Assembly: GCA_025458005.1 (NCBI GenBank)
Contig: JALOTG010000016.1
Span: 1-37,399, forward strand
From: Thiobacillaceae bacterium
GTDB lineage: Bacteria; Pseudomonadota; Gammaproteobacteria; Burkholderiales; Thiobacillaceae
Reading direction: 5' to 3'
DNA length: 37,399 nucleotides
The notes under the pieces were generated by a model. The model was not told the origin of the DNA. It searched no databases and saw nothing but the letters and a program-made list of their open reading frames with translations. Shown here one piece after another: positions 29,545 to 37,399 of the stretch. Position 1 is the first letter of the stretch, and every line of letters begins with the position of its first letter. Made by a program: the position numbers and the translations under genes.

Positions 29545-29726
29545 GTTCCCTCCTGAACCGTTGCAAGTTGTCCACGACACTATCGGCAAGCCAGGGCGAG
29601 ACTGCAAGCGAAACAGACGCGGCGCGGGGCAACCAAGCGCCCCAATCCCGACTTGCGTTCTCGGACATGCCGCCGATAATGGAGGCAAGCCGACGCGGAG
29701 ACGTCACACATATCAAGGAGGCAACC

Positions 29727-30701
29727 ATGATCGGCCTATCCCCCGCATTCCAGGACATGTCGCGACTGATCGGCCGCTATGCCGGCTGCGACGCCCCCGT
29801 GCTCATCGAGGGCGAGACCGGCACCGGCAAGGAACTGGCCGCGCGCACCATTCACTATCAGAGCGCGCGCCGCGACCACCCCTTCATCCCGGTCAATTGC
29901 GGCGCCCTGCCGGACACCCTGATGGAGAGCGAGCTGTTCGGCTACCGCCGCGGCGCCTTCACCGACGCGCGTCAGGACCGCGCCGGTCTGGTCGACCACG
30001 CGCGCGGCGGCACGCTGTTCCTGGACGAGATCGAGACCCTGTCGACCAAGGGCCAGGTCACCCTGCTGCGCTTCCTGCAGGACCAGCGCTTCCGCCCGCT
30101 GGGCCGGGGCGAGGAGCGCAGCGCCGACGTGCGCGTCATCGCCGCCAGCAACAGCCGGCTGGACGCCCTGGCCCAGGACGGACAGTTCCGCCAGGACCTG
30201 CTCTATCGCCTCAACGTCCTGCTGCTGGTCTGCCCGCCCCTGCGCGAGCGGGGTGGCGATGTGGCGATGCTGGCCGAGCATTTCCTCGCCCGCTGCGCCA
30301 GCCAGAGCGGCATCCGGGCGAAACGCCTGCACCCGGACAGCCTCGCCTGGCTGGAGGCGCAGGCCTGGCCCGGCAACATCCGCGAGCTGGAGAACCTCAT
30401 CTACCGGGAATGCCTGCTGGCCGACGGAGAGGAGATCCGCGTCCGTCCCTCGGCTGTCGTCCAGGCCGGCGAGCGGCGCGGCCGGGCGGACCGGCGCGTC
30501 CAGGCCTGGTGGGGACTGGCCTACAAGCAGGCCAGGAGCAGGGTCCTGGAGGAGTTCGAGCGGCAGTACCTGTCGCGCCTGCTGGCCGAGTCGCGCGGCA
30601 ACGTCACCCGCGCCGCCCTGCGCGCCGGCAAGGAGCGCCGCGCGCTGGGCAAGCTGCTGAAGAAGCACGGCATCGACCGTAGCGCCTACCTCGTGGCCTG
30701 A
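29727..30701 (+). CDS. PspF-shaped AAA+ sigma-54-type activator with altered GAFTGA loop
   Basis: A 324-residue protein that begins directly with the AAA+ domain: Walker A GETGTGKELAA, Walker B GTLFLDEIETL, finger region FRQDLLYRLNV, and a Fis-like C-terminus (GNVTRAALRAGKERRALGKL). It has no receiver or sensor domain, like PspF, so it would be controlled by a partner or by its level. The sigma-54 contact loop reads GAFTDA instead of GAFTGA, which may weaken or abolish sigma-54 contact, as in some EPS regulators. ATG 29727 has AAGGAGG before it. It precedes the VPLPA-CTERM gene by 84 bp. Confidence 0.88.
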   Translation: MIGLSPAFQDMSRLIGRYAGCDAPVLIEGETGTGKELAARTIHYQSARRDHPFIPVNCGALPDTLMESELFGYRRGAFTDARQDRAGLVDHARGGTLFLDEIETLSTKGQVTLLRFLQDQRFRPLGRGEERSADVRVIAASNSRLDALAQDGQFRQDLLYRLNVLLLVCPPLRERGGDVAMLAEHFLARCASQSGIRAKRLHPDSLAWLEAQAWPGNIRELENLIYRECLLADGEEIRVRPSAVVQAGERRGRADRRVQAWWGLAYKQARSRVLEEFERQYLSRLLAESRGNVTRAALRAGKERRALGKLLKKHGIDRSAYLVA

Positions 30702-30785
30702 CCCGCCATCGCATTCCCTGGTGGCATGCCGTCGCCGCGTGCCGGCATACTGTCTTTCGATGACGACGACAAAAAGGAGAGGAGC

Positions 30786-31610
30786 ATGACCCACGCGGTG
30801 CGCGCGATGTTTCCGGCATGCCTGGCAATCGCCTGTTCCCTGCCCAGCCACGCGGCGACGGTGACCGAGCAGGAGCTGCCCGCCTCCGTCCTGGCCTGCA
30901 TGTCGTCGGCCAGCTGTTTCGTCATGACCACGAGCAGCCATGAATCGGACACGGCGAGCGCCTTTCCGATCTTCCATCTCACCGGCGACGGCATGGAAGG
31001 GAACTGGCTGTTGCGCTACCCCCTGGTTCCCCCTTCCGGGCGGACCGGCATCCATCCGCCCCGCTTCGAGGGCCATGGCGGCCATCTATGGCTGATGGTC
31101 GAGGGACGCTACGACGCCTCCGAGTCGAGGCATCCCGTCACCCTCTACCTGGACAAGGTCGATCCCGCGCCAACCCCTTTTTACGGCCAGGAAGGCGATC
31201 TGTCGCTGTACGTCTCGACCGCCGACCTGCTCGCCGGCGACAGCCACATGACCGTGGGACTCGGCTACGGCGGCAGCTACGGCCATGGCGACCTGTCAGG
31301 CGAGACGCCGCTGCCCTGCCTCGCCGACGGCTGTCGGGTGCATGCCCGACTGAACCTCCTGCAACTGTCCTACGCCGAGGCCGGCCCGGACCTGGTGTTC
31401 GCCGGCTTCAATCCGTCCGACAGCCGCGGCCTGCTCTACAGGCAGGAGATTTCCTACCTGACGGGAGATCCGTTCGTCGACATGCACGACGTGCAGGCCT
31501 ATTACGTGAGCGCCGTGCCCCTGCCGGCACCGGCGTGGCTGATGGGCTCCGGCCTGTTGACGCTGATCGGCCTGGGGAAACGCCGTCACGCCCACCGGCG
31601 AACGGACTAG
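30786..31610 (+). CDS. VPLPA-CTERM sorting domain-containing secreted protein
   Basis: A 274-residue exported protein: signal peptide (FPACLAIACSLPSHA), a Gly/His/Tyr-rich beta-type body of unknown fold with Cys38/Cys44 and Cys181/Cys186 as possible disulfides, and a C-terminal VPLPAPAWLMGSG, a hydrophobic helix and KRRHAHRR. That tripartite tail is the VPLPA variant of PEP-CTERM, processed by an exosortase (XrtD-type) during delivery to the cell surface or EPS. No exosortase gene is in the window. AAGGAGAGGAGC precedes ATG 30786. Body function is unknown. Confidence 0.85.
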   Translation: MTHAVRAMFPACLAIACSLPSHAATVTEQELPASVLACMSSASCFVMTTSSHESDTASAFPIFHLTGDGMEGNWLLRYPLVPPSGRTGIHPPRFEGHGGHLWLMVEGRYDASESRHPVTLYLDKVDPAPTPFYGQEGDLSLYVSTADLLAGDSHMTVGLGYGGSYGHGDLSGETPLPCLADGCRVHARLNLLQLSYAEAGPDLVFAGFNPSDSRGLLYRQEISYLTGDPFVDMHDVQAYYVSAVPLPAPAWLMGSGLLTLIGLGKRRHAHRRTD

Positions 31611-31716: not shown

Positions 31717-31783
31717 CAAGATGCCGGGCCGGCTGGCCATCGACGGGGCTCGCCCCCGCGCCGACCGGCATGGCCGCGATGAC

Positions 31784-33535
31784 ATGGAAAAACAAGTTTC
31801 GGCGCGAGTTCGCGACGACGCGGTCGATGCCCGGCCGCGCGCTGACGACCTGCCCCAAATTGCCGCCAGCGAACTGATCGTCCGTTTCCTGGAGCGTCTT
31901 GGCGTCGAGTGCATCTTCGGCATGCCCGGCGCGCACATCCTGCCGGTCTACGACCGCCTGTACGACTCGGGCATCACCACCGTGCTGGCCAAGCACGAAC
32001 AAGGCGCCGCCTTCATGGCCTGCGGCTATGCCCGGGCCTCCGGTCGCATCGGCGCCTGCATCGCCACCGCCGGTCCCGGCGCCACCAACCTGGTCACCGG
32101 CATCGCCAACGCCTACGCCGACCGGCTGCCGGTGCTGGCGATCACCGGCGAGGCCCCCACCTACCTGTTCGGCAAGGGTGGCCTGCAGGAGAGCTCCGGC
32201 GAGGGCGGCAGCATCGACCAGACCGCCCTGTTCAAGCCCATCACCCGCTACAACCGGGTCATCGAGCGCACCGACTACCTGGAAAACGTGCTCAACCAGG
32301 CTGCCCACGCCCTGCTGGCCGAACCGCCGGGACCGGTGCTGCTCAGTCTGCCCTTCAACGTGCAGAAGGAGCGGGCGGACGCGAGCCTGCTGGACCGCAT
32401 CCCCGACCGACGCGCGGCGCCGCCGCCGTTCCCCGCCGACTCGCCGGCGGCCCAGAGGCTGGCGGAGATGCTGTGCGCGGCGCGGGATCCGGTCATCGTC
32501 GCCGGCTACGGTTGCATCCGCTCCGGCGCGCAGGCGGAGCTGGCCAGGCTGTCGGAGCTGCTGGCCATCCCGGTGACCTCCAGCCTGAAGGCCAAGGGGG
32601 TGATCAGCGAGGACTCGCCCATGGCCCTGGGCAGTCTGGGCGTGACCTCCAGCGGCCACGCCTACAAGTACATCGTCGACCACGCCGACCTGGTCGTCGT
32701 CCTGGGCGCCAGCTTCAACGAGCGCACCAGCTACCTGTGGGATCCCACCCTGCTGGCGGGCAAGCGGATCGCCCAGGTGGACAGCGACGCGTCCCAACTG
32801 GAGAAGGTCTTCCGGGCCGACCTGGCCATCCGGGGCGACATCCGGGCGGTGCTCGCCGGCGTGCTGGAGCGCCTGGAGGGCCAGGGCGGCGACGCCTACG
32901 TCTGCGACCGCCTGCGCGAGAAGATCGCCGCGGCCATGGCGGTGGTGGCGAGTGACTACGCCTTGTTCCAGTCTGGCTTCGCCCTGGTGCAGCAGTTCTT
33001 CGCCGCCCTGGCGGGCCGTTTCCCCCGCGGCGCGGTCATCTTCGACGACAACATCATCTTCGCCCAGAACTTCTACAGCGTGGCCGGCGGCAACCGCTAC
33101 TACCCCAACTCCGGCATCTCCTCCCTGGGCCATGCCATCCCGGCGGCCATCGGCGCGCGCCTCGCCGCGCCGGCGGACGCCCGGCCGGCGACCTTCGCCA
33201 TCCTGGGCGACGGCGGCTTCCAGATGTGCGGCATGGAGCTGATGACGGCGGTGAACCATGCCGTGCCGCTGAACGTGGTGGTGTTCAACAACGCCACCAT
33301 GGGCCTCATCCGCAAGAACCAGCACCAGCAGTACGCCCGGCGCTTCATCAGCTGCGACTTCGTCAACCCGGACTTCGAGCTCCTCGCCCGCGCCTTCGGC
33401 ATCCGGCACAAGCGGGTGGAGAACGCGGCGGACATCGACGACCTGTTCGAGCGTTACGATCTCACCGGCGCAATCAACCTGATCGAGATCGTCATCGACA
33501 AGAACCTGTTCCCGAACTATTCCTCGCGGCGCTGA
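31784..33535 (+). CDS. thiamine pyrophosphate-dependent enzyme, acetolactate synthase-like
   Basis: A 583-residue member of the TPP decarboxylase/carboligase superfamily. The catalytic Glu lies in VLAKHEQGAAFMACGYAR near residue 72, the central domain is present (ARDPVIVAGYGC), and the metal/TPP site is GDGGFQMCGMEL...NN near 475-505. It lacks the regulatory subunit gene and the BCAA context of IlvB, so acetolactate synthesis is doubtful; a carboligase or decarboxylase making a sugar-acid or ketone precursor is as likely. ATG 31784 is chosen by N-terminal length; the ribosome site is poor. The next gene starts 6 bp after its stop. Confidence 0.85.
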   Translation: MEKQVSARVRDDAVDARPRADDLPQIAASELIVRFLERLGVECIFGMPGAHILPVYDRLYDSGITTVLAKHEQGAAFMACGYARASGRIGACIATAGPGATNLVTGIANAYADRLPVLAITGEAPTYLFGKGGLQESSGEGGSIDQTALFKPITRYNRVIERTDYLENVLNQAAHALLAEPPGPVLLSLPFNVQKERADASLLDRIPDRRAAPPPFPADSPAAQRLAEMLCAARDPVIVAGYGCIRSGAQAELARLSELLAIPVTSSLKAKGVISEDSPMALGSLGVTSSGHAYKYIVDHADLVVVLGASFNERTSYLWDPTLLAGKRIAQVDSDASQLEKVFRADLAIRGDIRAVLAGVLERLEGQGGDAYVCDRLREKIAAAMAVVASDYALFQSGFALVQQFFAALAGRFPRGAVIFDDNIIFAQNFYSVAGGNRYYPNSGISSLGHAIPAAIGARLAAPADARPATFAILGDGGFQMCGMELMTAVNHAVPLNVVVFNNATMGLIRKNQHQQYARRFISCDFVNPDFELLARAFGIRHKRVENAADIDDLFERYDLTGAINLIEIVIDKNLFPNYSSRR

Positions 33536-33541
33536 GCGACG

Positions 33542-35101
33542 ATGGCGGAAGGCCGGCACGACTTCGTCATCGTCATCCCGGTCGCCGACCGGCCGCGCCA
33601 GCTCGCCGCCTGCCTGGAGAGCCTCGCCGCCCTGCTGGAGCGGCATCCCTACCCTGGCCGGGTCTCGGTGCTGATCGCGGAGGACAGCCGCGCGCCGGAC
33701 CACGTCGCCCGCCATCGCGCCCTGGCCGAGGACTTCAACGCCCGGGGCATCGCCGCGCATCACCTCGGCCAGGCGGAACAGCGCGCCCTGATCGAGACCC
33801 TGCCGGCGGACCTGCGGGCGCGGCTCAGCGGCGTGATCGGCGATCCGACCCGGGACCTCCATCACAAGGGTGCGTCCATCACCCGTAACCTGGCCTGCCT
33901 GTGGCTCGCGCGCCTGCCGCGCGACGGCGCCCGGCGGCTGTTCTGGTTCGTCGACAGCGACCAGGCCTTTTATGCCAACCTGCAGACCGCCACGGGCGAG
34001 GAACAGCCCCGCGTCATCGACTATCTTCACTGGCTGGACCGCATCTTCGCCGAGCGGCCGGTGCGCCTGGTCACGGGCAAGGTCGTCGGCGACCCCCCGG
34101 TCTCCCCCGCCGTCATGGCCGGCCACTTCCTGGACGACGTGCTCGCCTTCCTCGCCGAGCTGGCGGACCTGCCGCCCCAGGCGCCATGCGCCTTCCACGG
34201 ACTGGCGGCGCGGCCGGCCGGCGACGCCGCCTATCACGACATGGCCGATCTGTTCGGCTTCAAGCCGGCCGCCGAGACCTGGCGCCACCGCTGTCGCCTG
34301 ATCGGCGCGCACGACCACGTCGCCTGCCTGGCCGACTTCGCCGCTCGGGTCGGCCGCTTCCTCGACGGCGAGCACCTCACGCGGCGCGCCTTCTATCAGC
34401 CCGACGACCCGATGGCCAGCCTGCGGCCGGCGCGCACCGTCTACACCGGCAACTATGTCGTCGATGCGATGGGCCTGCGCTGGTTCATCCCCTTCGCTGA
34501 CCTGGGGCTGCGCATGGCCGGTCCCACCCTGGGCCGCATCCTGCGCGCCGAACTGGGCGACACCTTCGTCTCCGCCAACCTGCCCATGCTGCACGGGCGC
34601 GCCGTGGAGGACCTCGGCCAGGCGGAGTTCCGGCCCGGGATGGTGCGCGGGCACGACAGCGTCGACCTGTCCGGCGAGTACGAGCGGCAGTACTTCGGCG
34701 ACGTCATGCTGTTCGCCGTGGAGCGGCTCGCCGAGCAGGGCTTCCCCGGCGCCGAGCCGGACGCGGCGGCCATCTGCCGGGCGGTCGACGCAAGCGAGGC
34801 GCGCCTGCGCCAGCTCTATGGCGCCAAGCGCGGCGAGATCAGTGCAAAGCTCAGCCGGCTGGATGCGTTCTTCTCCGACCCGCGGCGCTGGTGGCATCGG
34901 GACGCCAACCTGGCCGGCGCGCGCCAGGCCATGCGCCGCTTCCTGGACGACCTGCGGCGCAACTTCGGCGATGATGCCCGCGCCTGGCAGCGGATTGGCT
35001 CGGATGCCCACCGCGAGTGGCGCAAGGCGGCCATCCGCCAGGCCATCGCCCGCTACCGCGACGAGCGCGAGGCCTGGCGCGTGGCCCTGGAGGGCGCATG
35101 A
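33542..35101 (+). CDS. GT-A-type glycosyltransferase-like protein
   Basis: A 519-residue cytoplasmic protein I cannot place in a named family. The N-terminus HDFVIVIPVADRPRQLAACL and VSVLIAEDS resemble GT-A nucleotide-sugar binding folds, and WFVDSDQAF near residue 140 supplies a DXD-like metal motif. Two further parts follow: a middle section with YTGNYVVDAMGLRWFIPFAD and a helical, Arg-rich C-terminus (about 420-519). The start is 6 bp after the TPP enzyme stop and the end overlaps the next ATG in ATGA, so the three genes form a coupled operon. Acceptor and donor are unknown. Confidence 0.65.
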   Translation: MAEGRHDFVIVIPVADRPRQLAACLESLAALLERHPYPGRVSVLIAEDSRAPDHVARHRALAEDFNARGIAAHHLGQAEQRALIETLPADLRARLSGVIGDPTRDLHHKGASITRNLACLWLARLPRDGARRLFWFVDSDQAFYANLQTATGEEQPRVIDYLHWLDRIFAERPVRLVTGKVVGDPPVSPAVMAGHFLDDVLAFLAELADLPPQAPCAFHGLAARPAGDAAYHDMADLFGFKPAAETWRHRCRLIGAHDHVACLADFAARVGRFLDGEHLTRRAFYQPDDPMASLRPARTVYTGNYVVDAMGLRWFIPFADLGLRMAGPTLGRILRAELGDTFVSANLPMLHGRAVEDLGQAEFRPGMVRGHDSVDLSGEYERQYFGDVMLFAVERLAEQGFPGAEPDAAAICRAVDASEARLRQLYGAKRGEISAKLSRLDAFFSDPRRWWHRDANLAGARQAMRRFLDDLRRNFGDDARAWQRIGSDAHREWRKAAIRQAIARYRDEREAWRVALEGA

Positions 35102-35676
35102 AGGTCTTCATCCTCAACAGCGGCCGCTGCGGTTCGACAACCTTCATCCAGGCCTGCCGCCACATCACCAACTTCACCGCCGGCCACGAGACCCGCGTCC
35201 GGCTGATCGGCGCGGCCCGACTGGCCTATCCCGACCAGCACATCGAGGCCGACAACCGCCTCGCCTGGATGCTGGGCCGCCTGGACCGGGTGCATGGCGA
35301 CAACGCCCGCTACGTCCATCTTCGCCGCGATCCGCTGACCACCGCCGCCAGCTTCGCCCGGCGCGCGGCGTTCGGGATCATGAAGGCCTACCGGGAAGGC
35401 ATCCTGCTGGAGGGCGAGCCGGGGCAGTCAGCCGAGGAGATCGCCCTGGACTACCTGGACACCGTGGAGGCCAATATCGACCTGTTCCTGCGGGACAAGC
35501 AGCAGCGCATGGACTTCCGCCTGGAGCACGCCAAGCGCGACTTTCGCGCCTTCTGGGCGTGGATCGGCGCCCAGGGGGACCTGGAACAAGCGCTGGCGGA
35601 ATGGGACAGGCGCCACAATGCCTCGGCGGCATGGGCCGAAGGGGGTGCCCCGCCCGCCGGGGACACCCCCGCCTAG
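35098..35676 (+). CDS. sulfotransferase family protein (PAPS-dependent type)
   Basis: A 192-residue protein starting with FILNSGRCGSTTFIQA, the 5'-phosphosulfate loop of PAPS sulfotransferases, and carrying YVHLRRDPLTTAASFARR, the 3'-phosphate-binding segment. It is short for the fold (usually 250-300), lacking part of the C-terminal region, but the ends look natural. The ATG overlaps the preceding stop (ATGA). It would transfer sulfate to a hydroxyl of the product made by the two genes before it; this is inference. Confidence 0.78.
   Translation: MKVFILNSGRCGSTTFIQACRHITNFTAGHETRVRLIGAARLAYPDQHIEADNRLAWMLGRLDRVHGDNARYVHLRRDPLTTAASFARRAAFGIMKAYREGILLEGEPGQSAEEIALDYLDTVEANIDLFLRDKQQRMDFRLEHAKRDFRAFWAWIGAQGDLEQALAEWDRRHNASAAWAEGGAPPAGDTPA
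35641..35670 (+). terminator. strong hairpin at the 3' end of the sulfotransferase gene
   Basis: GGGGGTG (35641-35647) pairs with CACCCCC (35664-35670) and CCCCG (35648-35652) with CGGGG (35658-35662), one base bulged, 6 bases before the stop codon. No T run follows. It may end the operon or protect its 3' end, between convergent genes. Confidence 0.4.
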
Positions 35677-35688
35677 GCCCCTGCCAGT

Positions 35689-36459
35689 CTAGGGTTGGGA
35701 CGAAGGCCGCTGCTGGATGCAGGCCAGGAACTCCGCCCTGGCCTCGCTGACGCATTGCCGCCAGCCCTCGTTATCGCCCTCCTGCAGGAACTCGGCGCAG
35801 TTCTCATGGTTCCTGGCCTGCGCCTCCACGCAGGTGGAATCGGCCTGGGACGGCCCGCCCGTCCGCCCCGCGCTGGCCTCTCGGGGGCCCGTGCCCGCGC
35901 CGCCGGACGCCGGTTCCTGCGGCGCCAGCGTGCCCTTGCCGTCAGCCTGGGCCGGGGGGCCGGCGGCCGCGCCGGCGCCCGGCGCCGCATCGAACAGGAA
36001 GACCCATTCCCGATAGCTTGGCAGCTCGGCGAAGTGGCGATAGGCGGCGGGAAAATTCGCGCTCTTGTAGGGGACCCCCTCATGCTGGCTGTAGACCCCG
36101 GCGATGCCGCCGTCTTGTCCGCGAACGATTCCCCATTCCTCGCCGCCGGTCATGGGGTCGCGGTAGACGCGGCGCAGATGGCGCACGGTGTTGGGAAAGC
36201 GCGGATCCCGGACGAGTTCCGCGAGGCTGTTCGGCAGGCGCTTCTGCGCGCCGGGCGCCGCCCGCCAGAAACTCTCGATGGCGCGGCGATACTGGTCGCC
36301 CACGAACAGCAGTTCCTGTTCCTTTTCGCGCTGCACGCTGGCATGCCAGACCACGCCCACGGCAGCCAGCGCGACGCCCAGCCCGGCGATGAGGAACAGC
36401 AGCCACAGGAAGGCGAATCCCTCCTGGCGCGGCGCAGAAGGGGACATGAATCGGCTCAT
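35689..36459 (-). CDS. type II pseudopilin-like protein with twin-CX10C tail
   Basis: A 256-residue protein with a prepilin-like N-terminus (RQEGFAFLWLLFLIAGLGVA), cleavage expected after Gly, but the position-5 Glu of true pilins is missing. The next part (KEQELLFVGDQYRRAIESFW, later PRFPNTVRHLRRVYRDPMTGGEEWG) is typical of GspG-like pseudopilins that accompany secretion or pilus systems. A Gly/Ala/Pro-rich linker (about 160-205) leads to a helical end with Cys210, Cys221, Cys236 and Cys247, two CX10C pairs. No ribosome site decides between ATG 36459 and 36447. No gsp genes adjoin it. Confidence 0.72.
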   Translation of the reverse strand: MSRFMSPSAPRQEGFAFLWLLFLIAGLGVALAAVGVVWHASVQREKEQELLFVGDQYRRAIESFWRAAPGAQKRLPNSLAELVRDPRFPNTVRHLRRVYRDPMTGGEEWGIVRGQDGGIAGVYSQHEGVPYKSANFPAAYRHFAELPSYREWVFLFDAAPGAGAAAGPPAQADGKGTLAPQEPASGGAGTGPREASAGRTGGPSQADSTCVEAQARNHENCAEFLQEGDNEGWRQCVSEARAEFLACIQQRPSSQP

Positions 36460-36544: not shown

Positions 36545-37399
36545 CTAGCGCCCGCGCAGGTCGCGCAGATGATCGTGATAGCGCGCCCGATAGAGCAGGC
36601 GGCGGCGTTCCGGACGATCGGTGAAGCCCGCGCGGGTGTGCAGCACGTTGTTGCAGATCAGGCCCATGCCGGGCCGCAGCTTCAGGGTGAAGACGCCCGG
36701 CGGAGAGCTGGCGAGCAGGTCCTCCAGGGCCTTGAGGGCCGCCTGGGTGGCCGCGTCGTCCTTCCAGCGGATGCTCTTGGTGCGCGCGGTGTAGCGCAGG
36801 TGCAGTCGCCCCGCCTCCACCAGCAGCGCCGGGCCGACCTCGTCGGGGCGTGCCACGCCCGTCTCGTCCACCCGGGCGGGGATGGTCATGGCGTCCTCCG
36901 CCATCAGGGCCCGGATATGGGCCGGATCGGCGTCGCGCAGGGCGATGTAGGCCAGTTCCGGGTCGTACAGGTCGTTCTCGCCACCCTCGTCGGCCTCCCG
37001 CACGCAGTGCAGCATCATGGCGTGAATGCGCCGCTCGGGCGGGTTGTAGTAGCCGTCGGTGTGCCAGCGGATGCGGTGGTGGGTGTAGGGAATGTAGTCG
37101 CCCCGGCGGCCGGGGTCGGTGCCCGGCGCGCGCCCGTCGGCGGCGCCGCTGTCCTCGTCTCTGGGGGTGAGGCTGGAGATGCCGTCCTCGTCCGCCAGCC
37201 AGTTGGCGTCCAGGCGGGTCAAGCCGAACTGGCCGGCCAGCTTGCGGGGGATGTCCTTGTCCTCGGTCTCGCCCAGGGGGGTGGCGTAGATGGCCATGTT
37301 GGTCTTGGCCACCAGCCGCCAGATGGACCGGTATTCGTCATCGGTGAGGTGGGCTGGGTCGCGCACGGGCACCACCAGATCCTCGGCCGCGACGGGATA
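36545..37399 (-). CDS. TauD/TfdA-type Fe(II)/2-oxoglutarate dioxygenase (5' end outside window)
   Basis: An open frame of 285 codons to the right edge, without a convincing start, so truncated there. The iron-binding HXD is in RWHTDGYYNPP, the distal His in ICNNVLHTRAGF, and the 2-oxoglutarate Arg in RRRLLYRARYHDH. These enzymes hydroxylate or cleave small molecules such as taurine, sulfonates, phosphonates, carnitine precursors or amino acids; the substrate cannot be told. The stretch GGENDLYDPELAYIAL is conserved in a subgroup often found near unrelated metabolic genes. Confidence 0.85.
   Translation of the reverse strand, partial: YPVAAEDLVVPVRDPAHLTDDEYRSIWRLVAKTNMAIYATPLGETEDKDIPRKLAGQFGLTRLDANWLADEDGISSLTPRDEDSGAADGRAPGTDPGRRGDYIPYTHHRIRWHTDGYYNPPERRIHAMMLHCVREADEGGENDLYDPELAYIALRDADPAHIRALMAEDAMTIPARVDETGVARPDEVGPALLVEAGRLHLRYTARTKSIRWKDDAATQAALKALEDLLASSPPGVFTLKLRPGMGLICNNVLHTRAGFTDRPERRRLLYRARYHDHLRDLRGR

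Follow-up and report, generated by a model that had tools for sequence, protein, structure and literature searches.

A proposed biosynthetic module found almost only in dsrA-carrying bacteria: a conserved pair of a thiamine diphosphate-dependent enzyme and a GT-A-fold protein with an interchangeable third enzyme

Thiamine diphosphate (ThDP; also thiamine pyrophosphate, TPP)-dependent enzymes of the decarboxylase superfamily comprise three TPP domains, and those closest to the protein considered here are acetohydroxyacid synthase (AHAS) and the BbmA/CsmA enzymes (PDB 8x3x, 8x3z), for which no function was found in the literature. YerE-like decarboxylase-family TPP enzymes perform C-branching in the sugars of lipopolysaccharide (LPS) (PMC12247030), while the GT75 nucleotide-sugar mutases MtdL and UAM/RGP combine a GT-A domain with core and C-terminal helices, MtdL using His287 as a Mn ligand and Arg289 to bind the diphosphate (PMC9937993). 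Sulfotransferases such as CurM and the tyrosylprotein sulfotransferases (TPST) possess a 5'-phosphosulfate-binding (5'-PSB) P-loop and a 3'-phosphate-binding (3'-PB) Arg...Ser motif. Here, we describe an operon that brings together relatives of these enzymes in a stretch of 37,399 nucleotides from a Thiobacillaceae bacterium (contig JALOTG010000016.1, positions 1 to 37,399, assembly GCA_025458005.1; the whole stretch is referred to as the window). It encodes a TPP enzyme (P0001), a GT-A-fold, glycosyltransferase-like protein (GT) and a short sulfotransferase-like protein (P0003), which an earlier reading of the DNA, hereafter the original prediction, had presented as a coupled trio. The conserved unit, however, is the TPP/GT pair and not the trio, and the module is found almost only in bacteria carrying dsrA, a gene of the Dsr (dissimilatory sulfite reductase) pathway of sulfur oxidation.

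Scanning for conservation in genomes that encode the middle protein yielded 80 independent loci; in 78 of these the TPP and GT genes adjoin in the same orientation, and the sulfotransferase-like gene follows GT in 32, nearly always within about 170 bp, so that the operon is conserved beyond chance. Among 117 genomes of the window's family, GT is present in 106 and the TPP orthologue in 107, with both in 105 and neither in 9, presence thus agreeing in 114 (Fisher p 7e-11). In many Thiobacillus genomes the two genes lie far apart, yet they still co-occur, as in G052, with TPP at 702 kb and GT at 1573 kb. The trio as an indivisible unit is ruled out, since the third gene is swapped among relatives; the neighbourhood survey thus bears out the coupling of the three genes, with the correction that only the TPP/GT pair is constant.

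Whole-genome searches of the 106 GT-bearing family genomes assign the third slot to the sulfotransferase in 14, to a PaaK-like enzyme in 36 and to a protein of about 250 aa in 56; two genomes have no third enzyme, and two (G019, G101) have two. At loci lacking P0003, GT is usually followed by a gene for a PaaK/CapK-like adenylate-forming enzyme of ~430 aa, the other alternative being a convergent gene for a Sulfotransfer_3-like protein of 245-250 aa. The PaaK-like third-slot proteins share the AMP-binding motifs of the DVU_1553 family (TIGR02304), but unlike its members fall below all equivalog cut-offs, and the window's genome has no copy. Profile comparison detected no homology between the two sulfotransferase-like third-gene families. 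On the GT tree the third-gene label changes 16 times, against 52 times when labels are shuffled, so the third partner follows the GT lineage with several switches; a strict tie between GT clade and third gene was rejected, the association being partial, as also seen in G034, G036 and G039, where TPP/GT and the sulfotransferase lie on separate contigs. The swap is directly visible in G101 (contig 8) and G083 (contig 90), because a broken or remnant PaaK-like gene still adjoins TPP, while GT stands beside a 250-aa gene elsewhere. At two loci (L041:12867-13589 (-) and L059:5150-5848 (-)) a distant relative of the 250-aa protein is convergent to a PaaK-like third gene, so both finishing enzymes can sit together. 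In G017 (93% complete), PaaK-like and 250-aa genes are present, and no TPP or GT orthologue was found.

The closest partner of the sulfotransferase is a Methyltransf_24 protein encoded outside the window. Its gene is convergent to the sulfotransferase gene in about half of the sulfotransferase-type loci, and an orthologue occurs in 13 of the 14 sulfotransferase-bearing family genomes versus none of 20 others (p 1.5e-8); in the window's genome it lies on another contig (G000:C167:12707-13321). Since the sulfotransferase gene adjoins Methyltransf_24 in G034, G036 and G039, with TPP/GT elsewhere, the module consists of two pairs.

P0001 carries the Pfam domains TPP_enzyme_N, TPP_enzyme_M and TPP_enzyme_C and retains the catalytic Glu and GDG...NN of the ThDP decarboxylase superfamily; among solved structures, BbmA and AHAS are its best-scoring sequence matches, over the whole length. 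Unlike AHAS, it has an extra SSGEGGS segment after LQE, and it scores far below the AHAS equivalog cut-offs (359.8 bits against 538 for the acetolactate synthase model TIGR00118). In P0001 and its aligned relatives the AHAS motifs are replaced, MLGMHG by SLGVTS or CLGVTS, FDDR by FNER and QWQ by KNQ, and the relatives have in common LQESSGEGG, SLGVTS (or CLGVTS), NERTS and LIRKNQ. Exactly one further TPP_enzyme_N protein exists in the window's genome, a textbook IlvB (854 bits to TIGR00118, 1070 bits to PRK06965), with which P0001 shares 29% identity. The separate true IlvB, the replaced motifs and the score below the cut-off rule out a plain acetolactate synthase, a case that the original prediction had named as refuting its reading; they support a TPP enzyme of the carboligase type.

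For the middle protein, searches of Pfam and NCBIfam gave no family above threshold, and the Pfam RGP model, which defines GT75 membership at the sequence level, gave no match at E up to 1. Its AlphaFold2 model, built from an alignment of 42 sequences, is confident (predicted local distance difference test, pLDDT, 91), and its top whole-chain matches are MtdL and UAM of GT75 (VIA-align Z 19-20, ~290 residues, 2.8-3.1 A), followed by GalNAc-T2 at Z 17 and then other transferases; Foldseek alone places GlfT2 and MpgS-type transferases among the first ranks. D138 and D140 of the DXD motif and His351-x-Arg353 at a strand end are invariant in the alignment, the latter recalling MtdL His287 and Arg289 (PMC9937993); these motifs agree with GT75, and are common in other GT-A enzymes too. 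Lys180 is likewise invariant and lies in the region where a counterpart of the autoglycosylated MtdL Arg159 would be expected. Unlike the GT75 mutases, the protein is longer, only ~16% identical and invisible to sequence-level searches, and the GT75 Arg itself was not identified. An ACP-like (acyl carrier protein-like) N-terminal extension considered for GT in relatives proved to be a weakly conserved stretch. By its modelled structure, then, the protein has a GT-A fold of an unnamed family closest to the GT75 nucleotide-sugar mutases, and may be a transferase or a mutase. The profile searches and the confident model agree with the original prediction of a GT-A protein without a named family; the accompanying notion that such proteins attach sugars is not assured here, because the nearest fold is that of a nucleotide-sugar mutase family.

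The model of P0003 (pLDDT 90) places sulfotransferases at the top ranks, CurM with Z 14.2 and TPST and glycan sulfotransferases scoring almost as high; SgdX2, whose PDB title reads 'activating sulfotransferase', is also among the matches. The 5'-PSB loop reads NSGRCGSTT and the 3'-PB motif is Arg77...Ser85, and G9, R10, G12, S13, T15, R77 and S85 are invariant among 25 relatives of P0003. The Arg and the Ser are spaced 8 residues apart, as they are in known sulfotransferases. P0003 shares the fold and both motifs with CurM and TPST, but differs from them in its length of ~176 aa, in having no family match above threshold and in its operon setting. It is a predicted minimal sulfotransferase, by motifs and model of the 3'-phosphoadenosine 5'-phosphosulfate (PAPS) type, in keeping with the P-loop type recognised in the original prediction.

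The distribution was surveyed in 399 genomes of the order, a phylum-wide sample of 398 genomes, plasmids and phages. The GT family is all-or-none in the order (37 of 399 genomes, all above 580 bits), and the phylum-wide sample gave 3 genomes with GT and a few weak partial matches; plasmids and phages gave no matches, and a plasmid or phage origin was rejected on that ground. Of the order genomes, 86 carry dsrA, including 36 of the 37 with GT versus 50 of the 362 others, in a test not corrected for phylogeny; by family, dsrA occurs in 8 of 8 families with GT versus 12 of about 42 others (family total estimated). Module holders among the sulfur oxidisers include Thiobacillus, Parasulfuritortus, Sulfurisoma, Thiodiazotropha, Sedimenticola and Chromatiales. 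Of the culturable relatives, Thiobacillus denitrificans has the core pair with the 250-aa protein, Sulfurisoma sediminicola the form with the PaaK-like enzyme and Parasulfuritortus cantonensis the form with the sulfotransferase.

We read the operon as a dedicated biosynthetic module in its sulfating form, with a constant core pair and an interchangeable third enzyme, at a probability of roughly 55%; the architecture of the module is well supported, while the sequence of steps and their chemistry are guesswork, and doubtful. The TPP enzyme would decarboxylate a 2-oxo acid and join the resulting acyl unit with a carbonyl acceptor, so that an alpha-hydroxy-ketone or a branched unit arises; the GT-A protein would attach or prepare a sugar by acting on a nucleotide sugar, through either transfer or pyranose/furanose isomerisation; the PAPS sulfotransferase would place sulfate on a hydroxyl; and the Methyltransf_24 methyltransferase would add a methyl group. 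In other lineages, the PaaK-like adenylating enzyme or the other sulfotransferase-like protein would complete the molecule. The module probably yields a decorated sugar or small glycoconjugate that serves bacteria with the Dsr pathway and that in the present version would be sulfated and probably methylated. Several points weigh against this interpretation. No core member has been characterised, and the module is missing from nearly a tenth of the family genomes, including several that are more than 90% complete. No genes for nucleotide-sugar synthesis, transport or polymerisation were seen recurring beside the module, so only the fold points to a glycan; an exopolysaccharide locus was rejected, no shared glycan genes being recognised in the neighbourhoods (not every neighbour was annotated). 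Most sampled 250-aa copies (e.g., L112:9171-9905 (-)) are missing the 3'-phosphate-binding Arg, and to judge by their sequences these proteins may not use PAPS; sulfation therefore cannot be claimed for all versions of the module. As for dsrA, the sole GT-bearing order genome without it is the window's own assembly (89.8% complete), and within the window's family the genomes that lost the module keep dsrA, with no tracking between the two (p = 1). Since dsrA persists after module loss, Dsr does not require the module, and the association reflects lifestyle or ancestry; an obligate member of the Dsr pathway is ruled out by the absence of co-loss within the family, and the dsrA link may be due to ancestry or habitat.

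The same enzymes can be read in other ways, the main rivals being C-branching of the YerE type and a furanose mutase route. In the first, the TPP enzyme would extend a nucleotide-bound keto-sugar by two or more carbons, after which the GT-A protein would pass this branched sugar on to a surface polysaccharide or lipid, and decoration by the third enzyme would follow. Such a pathway has the LPS precedent cited above, likewise a decarboxylase-type TPP enzyme near a nucleotide-sugar protein, and here too the partner of the TPP enzyme has a nucleotide-sugar fold, but unlike YerE-like systems the TPP/GT pair was seen with no recurring deoxysugar, polysaccharide or LPS genes alongside, and the best-scoring solved structures for P0001 are BbmA and AHAS; the branching and transfer steps are unlikely. 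That the GT-A protein is a GT75-type mutase making an NDP (nucleoside diphosphate)-furanose, with the module building a small furanose-containing metabolite and not a polymer, is a tentative alternative: the whole-chain ranking of MtdL and UAM ahead of GalNAc-T2, together with the matching DXD and His-x-Arg, argues for it, while the low identity to GT75, the Foldseek ranking and the failure to place an equivalent of Arg159, which is essential in GT75, leave it doubtful.

The third enzymes may also activate instead of capping, with sulfate or AMP serving as the leaving group for a later step; the closest folds to P0003 are CurM and olefin-synthase sulfotransferase domains, SgdX2 is among its matches, and the alternative third enzyme is adenylate-forming, but fold likeness does not show the reaction, and the nearly equal scores of TPST and glycan sulfotransferases help to make activation quite unlikely. 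Short gaps and overlaps are frequent in high-GC genomes, and chance co-transcription of unrelated genes, or an ordinary catabolic acetolactate synthase accompanied by passenger genes, could produce a similar arrangement; this is highly improbable, being contradicted by the adjacency in 78 of 80 loci, the co-occurrence of unlinked genes, the partitioned third slot and the separate true IlvB.

The three open reading frames were confirmed as open (Table 1). The TPP stop codon (33533-33535) is followed by gacgat and then by the GT ATG, which gives the 6-bp gap, and the GT gene ends in ...GGCGCATGA, whose ATG at 35098 starts the third gene, an ATGA overlap at 35098-35101; both couplings described in the original prediction are thus present. 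The TPP start codon is uncertain, as an in-frame ATG lies at 31721 and the relatives start some 20 residues further on. No promoter or terminator of consensus type was found in the operon region. The recognisable genes upstream are for molybdate transport, DegP, a histidine kinase and the NtrC-type regulator. The destination offered in the original prediction, a surface layer supplied by a VPLPA system, finds no support in the single weak PEP-CTERM-type protein upstream (no genome-wide exosortase search was made), nor in the loci of relatives, in which no neighbour outside the module itself is common to all its versions. Separately, the truncated dioxygenase downstream is nearest to the models of trimethylaminoethylphosphonate, trimethyllysine and gamma-butyrobetaine dioxygenases, with scores far under their cut-offs.

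Table 1. Features of the operon and its immediate surroundings in the window.
Feature	Position	Strand	Basis
ThDP (TPP)-dependent enzyme, ALS/AHAS-superfamily fold (P0001), core component 1	31784..33535	+	Pfam TPP_enzyme_N/M/C
GT-A-fold protein, unnamed family, core component 2	33542..35101	+	model, structural matches, invariant columns
Short sulfotransferase-fold protein (P0003), variable third component	35098..35676	+	model, fold match, motif invariance
NtrC-like sigma-54 regulator, precedes the weak PEP-CTERM-type protein	29568-30701		
Protein immediately upstream of the operon, weak matches of PEP-CTERM/VPLPA type at its C-terminus	30726-31610	+	
Protein convergent with the third gene, prepilin-like N-terminus (QEGFAFLWLLFLIAGLG), no Pfam family	35689-36459	-	
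TauD/TfdA-type dioxygenase, cut by the window end	36545-37399	-	

All of the module's enzymes fall into known superfamilies; their combination, the GT-A family and the exchange of third-slot enzymes did not turn up in the literature searched and appear to be undescribed. It is unlikely, though conceivable, that the module makes a new metabolite or glycoconjugate specific to bacteria with Dsr sulfur oxidation, centred on a new GT-A family and occurring in sulfated or acylated forms that differ between lineages; a carrier, a sulfur-globule compound or a sulfur-attachment compound would be examples. The findings make testable a compact pathway, widespread among sulfur oxidisers and undescribed until now: its genes are named along with a hidden fourth partner, a new GT-A family is defined by its middle enzyme, and the natural swaps of the last enzyme serve as built-in comparisons. 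Should it prove to be linked to Dsr sulfur oxidation, the module would be a new component of a well-studied pathway, and if not, it would represent a new class of small molecules or glycans in ecologically important bacteria.

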